From the IMG/VR virus record IMGVR_UViG_3300032360_000050, positions 1-24,118 of that record: DNA of 24,118 nt; one strand, 5' to 3'. The notes below the pieces were generated by a model. It did no database searches. It was not told where the DNA came from and was given only the letters and a program-made list of their open reading frames with translations. A program made the position numbers and the translations under genes. Source of the stretch: a virus. Shown here one piece after another: positions 11,541 to 21,574 of this stretch. Every line of letters begins with the position of its first letter. Positions within the stretch are counted from its first letter, which is position 1.

Positions 11541-12624
11541 TTTACACAACATACAAAGAGAATACCAAGGACAAAATGTTGTAACACCTTGGGATAGGTT
11601 AAAAAGGTTTATGTTTAATTCATATCCAGTTATTAAAACACCTATAAAAATAACAGATGAAGATACGTTGTTAGAAGCAGCGGCAGTGTATAAAGATAAA
11701 GCAGATATGATTTGGGTAGTATTTGATGATATTGAGGTAAATCCAAAGTTTCCATGGCAATATAGACCAGGTGACAATATAGCTAAAACTGTAATTCATA
11801 CGTTTCCTAGAGTAGTTAAAAGAACAAACAGACCAGTTAGTTGGGGAGATATTCAATTAGTTCCTACTAATGGTGTATCACATGGAACAGTACAAAACAA
11901 ACTTGTATCAAGTTATCATGTAGCAGAATTTGATGTATTCATGATTAGTTTCCATGAAGCAGAAGCAGATGAAAATTTCCAAAAACTAAGAAATAGATTT
12001 AAAGATGCTCAACACGTAAAAAATGTTGAAGGTATTGGCAATGCACATAAACGTGCAGGTGAATTAGCAAAAACAGAAATGGTTTATATAGTTGATGCAG
12101 ACGCAGATATAACAGGACACTTTAGTTTTGATTTTATTCCACCAATGAGTAGTAGAAAAAATACAACATATGTATGGAGTGCTAGAAACCCAATTAATGA
12201 TTTAGAATATGGGTATGGTGGTGTTAAGTTGTTTCCAAAAGAGCAATTACTTAACATGGGGCATGAATTACCAGATTATACAACAGGTGTATCTTTTTAT
12301 CAACCAGTTGCTAATATATCAAATATCACAAGATTTAATAAAGACCCATACAGAACATGGCGTAGTGCATTCCGTGAATGTGTAAAGTTAGCAAGTTCTG
12401 TAAACCCTAATCAAAAACAAGAAGAAACAGATGCAAGACTAGAAGCATGGTGTACAATTGATAATGGTGGACGTTTTGGACGTTACTGTATTAAAGGTGC
12501 ATTAGAAGGTAAAGCATACGGAATTGAACATAAAGACAATACAGATGAATTAAATAAAATTAATGACTTTGAATGGTTACGTGAGCAGTTTGTTGCTAGT
12601 ATGAAAAAGAGAATAACTGAATAA
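11533..12624 (+). CDS. Putative glycosyltransferase-like protein, 363 aa
   Basis: ATG 11533 overlaps the previous stop and has AAGGG upstream. The in-frame ATG at 11506 would add nine residues deeper inside the previous gene. A segment VEGIGNAHKRAGELAKTEMV leads into VYIVDADADI, with a D188-A-D190-A-D192 motif like the metal-binding DxD of GT-A enzymes. Later YVWSARNPINDLEYGYGGVK and LFPKEQLLNM could be the acceptor side, and FGRYCIKGALEG lies near the C-terminus. The N-terminal 130 residues are unassigned. It is paired with another DxD protein, so the two may act in one pathway. The glycosyltransferase role is inferred from motifs. Confidence 0.6.
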   Translation: MINLHNIQREYQGQNVVTPWDRLKRFMFNSYPVIKTPIKITDEDTLLEAAAVYKDKADMIWVVFDDIEVNPKFPWQYRPGDNIAKTVIHTFPRVVKRTNRPVSWGDIQLVPTNGVSHGTVQNKLVSSYHVAEFDVFMISFHEAEADENFQKLRNRFKDAQHVKNVEGIGNAHKRAGELAKTEMVYIVDADADITGHFSFDFIPPMSSRKNTTYVWSARNPINDLEYGYGGVKLFPKEQLLNMGHELPDYTTGVSFYQPVANISNITRFNKDPYRTWRSAFRECVKLASSVNPNQKQEETDARLEAWCTIDNGGRFGRYCIKGALEGKAYGIEHKDNTDELNKINDFEWLREQFVASMKKRITE

Positions 12625-15637: not shown

Positions 15638-16612
15638 ATGTTTGATTTTTTCAAATCTAAAAAATGGGCCGTTTGGGCCTATCTTGGCTCAACAGTAATT
15701 TTAACTTCTCTTTGGCTTTCAGTTCAAATAGATGTTCAAATTAACCATTGGTTTGGTGGTTTCTACGATATGATTCAAAAAGCGTTAGGAACTCCAAATG
15801 CCATCACAGCAGGTGAATATTGGGGTAGTTTAGCCAGTTTTGGTAAATTAGCGGCGTTGTGGATTGTCTTAGGACTAGCTACATCATTTCTAACAGCTCA
15901 CTTTTTATTCCGTTGGAGAGCTAGTATGGTCGAATGGTATCATAGTGTATACGATAAAGCACGTACCATTGAAGGTGCGGCTCAGCGGGTACAAGAAGAT
16001 ACTATTAAATTCAGTAGAATTATGGAAAGCCTGGGCACTGCTTTGATTGAGAGTGTTATGGTATTGGTAGAATTTTTCCCATTATTAGTGGGATTATCTA
16101 TTGGTATTCCTATTCTATGGTTCGGCGATTGGGAGTATGGATTAATAGCTGGCGCTCTTATATGGGCAGTTGGTGGTACTATACTAATGATTGTATTGGC
16201 TTGGTTACTAAGGCTTGTAGGCATTGAATATGACCTACAGAAGAAGGAAGCAGCATATAGGAAAATCCTAGTTGTTGCTGAAGACGATGGAAGCATAAGA
16301 CCAAAGTCATTAGAAGAGCTATTTGACGGTGTAAGAAACATTCACTATAAGAGTTATTTGAGATATTTGTATTTTAACATAGGACGACTTGCATACTTGC
16401 AGGCTAATGTGTTAGCAGGATACATCTTCTTAGCACCAGCAATTATTGCAGGTGTTATGACACTTGGTGTAATGCAACAGATTTTACGTGCATTTGGACG
16501 TGTTGAAGGTTCACTTCAATATTTGTTTAAAGCATGGCCAACTATTATTGAATTGGCTAGTGTTTACAAACGTTTACGTGAATTTGAAGCTAAGATAAAA
16601 GAGATGGAATAA
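15638..16612 (+). CDS. SbmA/BacA-family peptide transporter homologue, 324 aa
   Basis: The protein matches the SbmA/BacA inner-membrane transporter family over nearly its full length. Key segments are GFYDMIQKAL (41-50), FRWRASMVEWY (91-101), IEGAAQRVQEDT (111-122), KKEAAYRKILVVAEDD (202-217), LRYLYFNIGR (241-250) and MTLGVMQQILRAFGRVEGSL with YKRLREFE (274-317). SbmA and BacA import peptides such as microcins, proline-rich peptides and bleomycin without a nucleotide-binding domain. Hydrophobic segments lie at about 11-30, 68-91, 134-160, 166-192 and 248-275. E. coli SbmA is about 400 residues; this protein lacks roughly the first 80, so it keeps only the core. AAGGAG precedes the ATG. The phage role is unknown. 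Confidence 0.88.
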   Translation: MFDFFKSKKWAVWAYLGSTVILTSLWLSVQIDVQINHWFGGFYDMIQKALGTPNAITAGEYWGSLASFGKLAALWIVLGLATSFLTAHFLFRWRASMVEWYHSVYDKARTIEGAAQRVQEDTIKFSRIMESLGTALIESVMVLVEFFPLLVGLSIGIPILWFGDWEYGLIAGALIWAVGGTILMIVLAWLLRLVGIEYDLQKKEAAYRKILVVAEDDGSIRPKSLEELFDGVRNIHYKSYLRYLYFNIGRLAYLQANVLAGYIFLAPAIIAGVMTLGVMQQILRAFGRVEGSLQYLFKAWPTIIELASVYKRLREFEAKIKEME

Positions 16613-16617
16613 CCAAA

Positions 16618-16649
16618 AATACCTGATAATTTGACGATTATTGGGTATT
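16618..16649 (+). terminator. Hairpin directly after the SbmA-like gene
   Basis: A 13-bp stem with two wobbles (16618-16630 with 16637-16649) encloses the loop TTGACG. It starts 5 nt after the stop. It lacks a T run but is followed 20 nt later by a clear terminator, so it may stabilise or pause the message. Confidence 0.45.
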
Positions 16650-16668
16650 ATTTTCAAAAAAAAATAAG

Positions 16669-16704
16669 AATCCTTGTAAGTCTATGATTTATAAGGATTT
16701 TTTT
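16669..16704 (+). terminator. Rho-independent terminator after the SbmA-like gene
   Basis: An 11-bp stem AATCCTTGTAA (16669-16679) with TTATAAGGATT (16689-16699) has one wobble, a 9-nt loop and a T run at 16698-16704. It separates the transporter from the sigma70 promoter at 16718. Confidence 0.85.
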
Positions 16705-16717
16705 GTGGCAGAAAAAC

Positions 16718-16746
16718 TTGACAAGTAAGACATCTTACTGTATACT
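16718..16746 (+). promoter_or_regulatory. Strong sigma70 promoter with a palindromic operator-like spacer
   Basis: TTGACA at 16718-16723, a 17-nt spacer and TATACT at 16741-16746 make a near-consensus sigma70 promoter, unlike the late-like boxes elsewhere. Sixteen of the 17 spacer bases (16724-16739) form a perfect inverted repeat, AGTAAGA-CA-TCTTACT. A dimeric repressor bound there would block RNA polymerase. The first gene starts at 16782 with an AAGGAG site. The operator function is inferred. Confidence 0.8.
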
Positions 16747-16781
16747 ATAGTTATAGTTAATTAAAAATAAGGAGTTAAAAT

Positions 16782-17054
16782 ATGTTTAAAAAAGAAAAAT
16801 TTAGTTATTTTGGTGGGTATTTAACATATAACCTAGAAAATGGTGAACGTGACATTTTTATTGCACGTTTTAAACATGGTGGACCTTTTACTAAGGCCAA
16901 GTTCCTTAAAGAACTTCTTAATAGTCATACTGTAGAAAGTTATACAGCGGCTATGGAAAAAGGTGAAACACCATTAACAATTCTTAAAGACACTAACCCA
17001 AGTTGGTATACAACTGTTATAGAAACTTGGAAATCAAAACAAGGAGCATTATAA
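16782..17054 (+). CDS. Unknown small protein, 90 aa
   Basis: It follows the sigma70 promoter at 16718 and has AAGGAG 7 nt upstream. The protein is basic and aromatic-rich (MFKKEKFSYFGGYLTYNLENGERDIFIARFKHGG), with a predicted beta-rich first half and helical second half (AKFLKELLNSHTVESYTAAME). Its stop overlaps the next ATG by one base (TAATG). No family is recognised. The promoter type suggests early expression, so a host-takeover role is possible but unproven. Confidence 0.7.
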   Translation: MFKKEKFSYFGGYLTYNLENGERDIFIARFKHGGPFTKAKFLKELLNSHTVESYTAAMEKGETPLTILKDTNPSWYTTVIETWKSKQGAL

Positions 17055-17419
17055 TGAGAAGTAACGAATTAAATAAAACATATAAAATTTACCAAATACA
17101 ACTCTCAGATGCAGATGTTGATATGATTAATGATAAAGGACATAACAGTGTTCCTCATCATAAAGCAAAATTGGATATGAATTTTGCTGATAACATTGGT
17201 GCATTAGCAAGTGATGCTTTTAATAAAGGTTACTATACTCATGTTGCTAATATTACTGCTGATGGACTTGAAGATGTGTTTCATGTTGGAAACATGGGTC
17301 CAGAAGAAAACATTGAAAGGTTAACTAAAATGCATAGCCTTAGTGTTGCTGATGTTGTAGAAGCCCCAGATGGAATTAAACACGTTGTTGCCAGCTCTGG
17401 TTTTGCAAAGGTTGACTAA
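17054..17419 (+). CDS. Conserved-looking small protein with YodL-like C-terminal motif, 121 aa
   Basis: ATG 17054 overlaps the previous stop and has AAGGAG at 17041-17046; an earlier in-frame ATG at 17003 lies inside the previous gene and was not used. The N-terminal half (YKIYQIQLSDADVDMIND, then THVANITADGLEDVFHVGN) looks like a beta-alpha domain I have met in marine phage genomes. The C-terminus MHSLSVADVVEAPDGIKHVVASSGFAKV resembles the RxHSLSVxDVV...GF signature of YodL-type small domains found in phages and plasmids. The function is unknown. A candidate terminator follows at 17428. Confidence 0.75.
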   Translation: MRSNELNKTYKIYQIQLSDADVDMINDKGHNSVPHHKAKLDMNFADNIGALASDAFNKGYYTHVANITADGLEDVFHVGNMGPEENIERLTKMHSLSVADVVEAPDGIKHVVASSGFAKVD

Positions 17420-20854: not shown

Positions 20855-21549
20855 AACGAGTAGGTATATTAGGATCAAGTTTTTCAGTAGGATCACATCA
20901 TAATTCAAAGACAAAACAGAATGATTTAGCACTCCCATTTGAAACTTGGCTTTACAAACATACAACAGATATAGAATTTTATAATTCAGCATGTTCTGGA
21001 AAGGGTACTGAGCTATACCTAAACAAAATCGTTTACTTGAAAAAGAAATATAATGTTGATACTATTTTGATGGAACTTGTTAACAACCGTTCTATGTTCA
21101 ATGTAAAGACACAAGAATATGACTTAGATGATATCACAGATAATCTATACGAGAATAGTGCATCTATATGGAACTACATAAGAGCTATAACACAAGATAT
21201 CGACTATAAAAAGTTCGCAACAAAACGTGAGTTTAACACTTGGAAGTCAGTACAAGAGAATATAGCATATAACTTCAATGCTTTTGAGTTTTGGGGAGTA
21301 TTAGATTGTAAACAAGCTATCGAATTATGTGAGTTATTAGATATAAAAGTTGTTACATGGCAAAAGAGTTTTGATTTTAGAGAACATATACCACAAACAG
21401 TTAGATTTTTAGAATTTGCGAATGCACATGAATACTATGTAGACAAATATGATGAGAAGTCAATACTATGTGATCATATACATTTCAACGATACAATAAA
21501 TGAAGAAATGATTAAAGATTTTATTGTACCTACTTTAATTAGCACTTGA
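20851..21549 (+). CDS. SGNH/GDSL-type hydrolase-like protein, 232 aa
   Basis: All blocks of the SGNH hydrolase pattern can be placed: GSS at 8-10 with Ser9 or Ser10 as nucleophile, Gly50 in NSACSGKGTE, Asn78 in ELVNNRS, and Asp208-x-x-His211 in CDHIHFND as the C-terminal dyad. Such enzymes are esterases, lipases or sugar deacetylases. The substrate is unknown; deacetylation of a host surface glycan is one possibility. It starts with ATGA overlap with the previous small gene. Its stop codon lies inside the -35 box of the next promoter. Low identity to classic GDSL proteins keeps the call tentative. Confidence 0.6.
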   Translation: MKRVGILGSSFSVGSHHNSKTKQNDLALPFETWLYKHTTDIEFYNSACSGKGTELYLNKIVYLKKKYNVDTILMELVNNRSMFNVKTQEYDLDDITDNLYENSASIWNYIRAITQDIDYKKFATKREFNTWKSVQENIAYNFNAFEFWGVLDCKQAIELCELLDIKVVTWQKSFDFREHIPQTVRFLEFANAHEYYVDKYDEKSILCDHIHFNDTINEEMIKDFIVPTLIST

Positions 21550-21574
21550 CATACATGTTTATTCTATGTATAAT
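21546..21574 (+). promoter_or_regulatory. Perfect consensus sigma70 promoter before the dNMP kinase
   Basis: TTGACA at 21546-21551, a 17-nt spacer and TATAAT at 21569-21574 match the full E. coli sigma70 consensus. The expected transcription start, about 7 nt after the -10 box, falls on the ATG at 21581. The -35 box overlaps the stop codon of the previous gene. Confidence 0.88.

Follow-up and report, generated by a model that had tools for sequence, protein, structure and literature searches.

A palindrome-bearing, early-type promoter class with a probable repressor operator in an uncultured lineage of T4-like phages

Known promoter and operator systems and the window promoter

Palindromic sites in the spacer of a strong promoter are known from tetO and from the Arc operator at P22 Pant, where binding excludes RNA polymerase, and dispersed phage sites that control scattered genes are known from the phage P1 C1 operators and the SPbeta repeats. 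MerR-type promoters hold a palindrome in a lengthened spacer of 19-20 nt, while the MetJ operator consists of at least two tandem 8-bp met boxes with the sequence AGACGTCT. T4-like early promoters are used by the unmodified host polymerase within the first minutes of infection. For T4-like phages, the part of the literature source dealing with early promoters of the RB49, RB43 and Aeh1 type describes host sigma70-type elements with a GTTGAC-like -35 and an A-rich, UP-like block at -40 to -44, which occur in many copies per genome and often upstream of novel ORFs; in the T4 MotA middle promoter, a GCTT Mot box at -30 to -27 replaces the -35 hexamer (PMC1524935). Mycobacteriophage stoperators, in the corresponding part of their source, are dispersed asymmetric sites that are also active inside transcription units (PMC9283540).

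Here we describe a promoter in a stretch of 24,118 nt (the window), a 24-kb fragment of a viral contig with T4-like tail genes. An initial annotation had reported TTGACA-17-TATACT enclosing a perfect 7-2-7 palindrome, and we confirmed this arrangement at 16718-16746, in the following context:

15638-16612, + strand: SbmA/BacA-like membrane protein of 324 aa (Pfam E 1.6e-128), the upstream neighbour, outside the unit
16618-16702, + strand: two stable hairpins separating the promoter from the SbmA-like gene (z of the pair -6.2)
16666-16702, + strand: the second hairpin, followed by a T run and intrinsic-terminator-like (z -4.7)
16718-16723, + strand: -35 hexamer TTGACA, unchanged in the close relatives L002-L008
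16724-16739, + strand: palindrome AGTAAGACATCTTACT (7-2-7; AGTAAGA-CA-TCTTACT), the proposed operator
16726-16737, + strand: conserved palindrome core TAAGACATCTTA, kept as YAAGANNTCTTR in the promoter-embedded copies described below
16741-16746, + strand: -10 hexamer TATACT
16747-16760, + strand: initial transcribed region ATAGTTATAGTTAA, placed by consensus comparison within the class consensus ATAAGTATA..TAA
16770-16774, + strand: Shine-Dalgarno-like AGGAG
16782-17054, + strand: first gene of the unit, 90 aa, matching phrog_22119 in PHROGs
17054-17419, + strand: second gene of the unit, 121 aa, overlapping the stop of the first (TAATG)

Between positions 12,000 and 22,000, five sites match 11 or more of the 12 consensus bases, among them this promoter, which matches 11 and has a spacer of 17 nt (16724-16740). 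As two strong hairpins lie ahead of the promoter and a T run follows the second, the unit looks insulated from the gene before it; a hairpin after the second gene was no better than shuffled sequence. The preceding SbmA/BacA-like transporter gene is an unusual phage cargo, with 203 relatives in viral contigs. Elsewhere in the window, a perfect 12/12 sigma70 promoter (TTGACA-17-TATAAT, 21546-21574) lies at the start of a dNMP-kinase-like gene and lacks the YAAGANNTCTTR palindrome; the ATG listed for that gene at 21566 would fall within this promoter. The palindrome itself occurs once in the window, which holds five perfect 7-2-7 palindromes against a mean of 3.25 and a maximum of 9 in shuffled sequence. 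Hence, the window alone proves little, and the palindrome gains its significance from relatives.

The class to which the window promoter belongs has the consensus AAAAGG TTGACA-N17-TATAMT and a median distance of 61 nt from the -35 to the ATG, the window copy carrying AC in place of the class GG before the -35. In its -35 and -10 elements, ~17-nt spacing, G before the -35, A-rich upstream block and short ORF leader, the class consensus resembles the T4-like early promoters, and it differs from them by a 12-bp inverted repeat in the spacer, a feature absent from the description of the T4 type in the part of the source concerned (PMC1524935). A MotA middle promoter does not fit, given the full TTGACA and the absence of GCTT from the spacer, nor does a MerR-type promoter, given the 17-nt spacer and the lack of a MerR_1 match in the contigs searched. 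Some palindrome cores read AGACGTCT, as in the met box; a MetJ operator was rejected on finding a single box, no tandem 8-bp repeats and a centre that takes nine forms. The location of the palindrome between the -35 and -10 of a strong promoter recalls tetO and the Arc operator, but these are single loci with a known repressor, whereas here the site is common to many promoters and the regulator is only a candidate. Like P1 C1 operators, SPbeta repeats and stoperators, it is one short site repeated genome-wide, with the same sequence at many promoters per genome; unlike stoperators as portrayed in the relevant part of their source, the sites are symmetric and, with few exceptions, located in promoters, and a lysogeny module was not observed (PMC9283540).

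Distribution and conservation of the element

The scan for further copies proposed in the initial annotation returned many in viral contigs. Whole-contig searches yielded 103 promoter-embedded copies of YAAGANNTCTTR in 21 contigs, compared to 0 for the reversed pattern used as a control, with up to 13 copies per contig (3 in G001, 13 in G004, 6 in G005, and 7 each in G016, G017, G019 and G020) and 0-1 copies in each of the relatives G002, G008, G009 and G010. The exact 19-mer TTGACAAGTAAGACATCTT was present in 100 stretches of viral contigs, and its copies in the fetched loci stand upstream of many different, unrelated genes and have in common the longer consensus AAAGG TTGACAAGTAAGACATCTTRCYG TATAMT ATAAGTATA; the first proposal, of a promoter driving two small genes, understates the reach of the element. 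The fetched loci contained 155 distinct YAAGANNTCTTR sites, 140 of them within a promoter, versus 3-41 for control palindromes, in a set biased by the retrieval of many loci through the motif itself. In cultured phages, a 60-nt consensus query gave partial matches only and no matching site, and a nucleotide search with the full region gave no match; a literature search with the core sequence found no description of the motif, the papers listed being unrelated.

The link between palindrome and promoter flank was also seen among the ORF-proximal promoters of eight long contigs, which were selected by flank alone and are free of motif-retrieval bias: the palindrome was present in 50/84 promoters with GG before the -35 and in 5/147 others (Fisher p 3e-22), and in 0/47 in two motif-poor relatives. 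A terminator-like hairpin lay upstream of 21/55 palindromic and 9/176 non-palindromic promoters (p 8e-9), so that palindromic promoters, to judge from these hairpins, often look like those of moron-like cassettes placed behind a terminator.

The 16-bp palindrome of the initial annotation is present in the window, but the conserved unit is only the 12-bp YAAGANNTCTTR, the outer two base pairs being variable (ACCAAGA...TCTTAT occurs). Across the 103 sites, for which the arms AAGA and TCTT were imposed by the search pattern, nine different dinucleotides occur at the centre, and transitions are tolerated at both outer positions (T/C on the left, A/G on the right). The palindrome centre follows the -35 by 7 nt at 9 sites, 8 nt at 68, 10 nt at 9 and 13 nt at 17; distances of 9, 11 and 12 nt do not occur. 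Every site at 7 or 10 ends in G and every site at 13 in A, and the right arm probably shares bases with the extended -10 TG or with the -10 TA; such base sharing explains positions 10 and 13, but not the whole quantisation. At one locus (L249:3826-3896, in G005), two palindromes 48 bp apart, one at an unusual 4-nt offset, precede a 92-aa ORF that has no homologue in the other contigs.

Between orthologous genes, the palindrome persists but its place and centre differ: its distance from the -35 is 8 nt before the AAA+ ATPase gene in G001, G004 and G018 and 13 nt in G005, and before the gene for a 463-aa protein it is 13 nt (G019) or 10 nt (G020). Some orthologous promoters lack it, namely those of a 234-aa gene in G005 and of UvdE in G017. 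Relatives of the first gene of the window unit with 93-100% identity keep the palindrome, whereas homologues in other phages, 40-57% identical, mostly have a sigma70-type promoter without it. Conservation of the palindrome along with the promoter, on which the initial annotation had made its proposal depend, is therefore seen at orthologous promoters within the lineage but mostly not outside it. With the many further copies, the operator-in-promoter reading thus withstands, within the lineage, the checks set by the initial annotation. As distant homologues mostly lack the palindrome, the operator would be an added, lineage-specific layer, and since the genomes concerned also have promoters without a palindrome, as do distant phages at the same gene, the palindrome seems dispensable for promoter function. 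The class also has a conserved block, ATAAGTATA..TAA, just 3' of the -10, and the element may be more than a simple operator. The sequences show that the promoters form a class, repeated and conserved, with a fixed set of palindrome positions and frequent insulation.

Target genes and the proposed operator

Genes under palindromic promoters include, among those with named domains, an AAA ATPase, a UvdE endonuclease, a cell-wall hydrolase and a subtilase-family protein, and further a YodL-like protein and many small uncharacterised proteins. Genes of this sort would be termed moron or early host-takeover genes. The 121-aa second gene of the window unit has a weak YodL-like match, below the Pfam cut-off, and in G004 and G005 the orthologous gene is preceded by a palindromic-class promoter of its own. 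The subtilase-family protein, of 927-936 aa, combines a subtilase domain (E 6e-40) with a C-terminal region resembling an outer-membrane barrel, and has a palindromic promoter in both contigs that encode it (-35 at 94751 in G019 and at 94461 in G020). The 205-kb contig G004 (L268-L278) also encodes ClpS, IF-3, NifU, Hsp20, two Clp-protease-family proteins, a redoxin and other host-like genes.

We consider it probable, at roughly 70%, that this is a promoter class of one uncultured, mostly marine T4-like myovirus lineage in which the palindrome serves as a repressor operator that switches accessory genes; an on/off regulator of these scattered genes very probably docks on the palindrome. We infer dimer binding, repression and timing as follows. 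A strong host-sigma70 promoter of the T4-like early type would carry the 12-bp operator between or overlapping its core elements, a putative dimeric DNA-binding protein on the palindrome would block RNA polymerase, and scattered, often terminator-insulated accessory genes would be jointly switched off, either during some stage of infection or on the genome of a superinfecting phage. Repression is favoured because the -35, the -10 and their spacing are near optimal, so that no activator is needed, and because a protein on the spacer would collide with the polymerase. As a counterpoint, a freely placed repressor site does not require the quantised positions observed.

The operator might instead be read by a host transcription factor, the phages having copied a host site so that their accessory genes track host physiology, a reading that we regard as possible, if rather doubtful. 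The RHH_1, HTH_3, MerR_1 and HTH_17 models gave no match in the long contigs searched while positive controls worked, and the limitation of the palindrome to one lineage could mean one host group. However, a 20-mer version gave one match in 84,980 bacterial and archaeal species genomes, about chance level, for a pattern combining the -35 with the palindrome, whose exact junction need not occur in a host site; moreover, a phage regulator explains at least equally well why one motif is used by diverged phages that differ in gene content.

Candidate regulator and remaining readings

The leading phage-encoded candidate for binding the palindrome, proposed tentatively and from correlation, is an 86-aa HTH_39 (PF14090) protein that scored 30.7 bits against a curated cut-off of 21.3. 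Its structural model shows a helix-strand-helix-helix-strand-strand order and a winged-helix fold (mean pLDDT 74.5), with weak matches to winged-helix regulators (best E 0.04). The protein is encoded in 10/26 contigs and was not found in the motif-poor G002, G008, G009 and G010; both the window locus and the HTH_39 locus are present on the single 123-kb contig of G001, which is closely related to the window. G016 and G017 lack HTH_39 and also the uvsY-like locus, indicating that these contigs are probably incomplete. In most palindrome-bearing loci, the HTH_39 gene is flanked by two palindromic promoters, at about -870 and +350, while the promoter of the gene itself, AAAGG-type in most cases, has no palindrome. 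Among the small proteins of G004 and G017 compared with Pfam and PHROGs, the best 25 families listed included no other obvious transcription factor, the cold-shock domain excepted.

Loci with S or L at position 51 of HTH_39, in the recognition helix, had palindromes in 57/58 cases, and those with T lacked them in 14/14, but we rejected this variant as a predictor because phylogeny accounts for most of the pattern (3 changes on the tree). More distant HTH_39 homologues occur without palindromes, again following the tree, and one locus (L392) has an identical recognition helix and no palindromes. Given L392 and this phylogenetic clustering, the link between HTH_39 and the palindrome is weak. It would be a speculative step, and one we hold to be somewhat unlikely, to conclude that YAAGANNTCTTR is the recognition site of a phage-encoded HTH_39 dimer through which apparently virulent marine T4-like phages silence moron-like cassettes, a dozen or more in each genome. 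If true, the HTH_39 regulon would cover nucleases, secreted hydrolases and host-takeover proteins, and such a genome-wide repressor regulon would be a control layer undescribed for T4-like phages.

We think it unlikely that, instead of a repressor, the palindrome binds an activator or extends the sequence recognised by a phage-modified RNA polymerase. The discrete positions of 7, 8, 10 and 13 nt look like a fixed architecture, as does the conserved block downstream of the -10, but near-consensus elements with a 17-nt spacer make an activator superfluous, and promoters without the palindrome exist alongside. Activators of the MerR type need a stretched spacer, and the corresponding domain was not found in the contigs searched. 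Furthermore, between orthologues the palindrome is displaced by 5 bp, or roughly half a turn of the helix, a shift that an activator dependent on helical phase would not accommodate. Chance, or recent duplication of one promoter cassette with a functionless palindrome, is highly improbable and already contradicted by conservation: about three perfect 7-2-7 palindromes are expected per window of this size and much of the surrounding promoter is common to several copies, but the arms are retained at diverged orthologues while the centre, position and flanking spacer vary, and neither the fixed position set nor the excess over the control fits such an origin.

With the palindrome as a repressor operator, one odd promoter in a metagenomic fragment would become a defined regulon in uncultured marine phages, in which the motif would predict co-regulated accessory genes and could serve as pull-down bait for a new regulator. 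Overall, with such a regulon the early, middle and late scheme of T4-like phages would gain a layer of repression.
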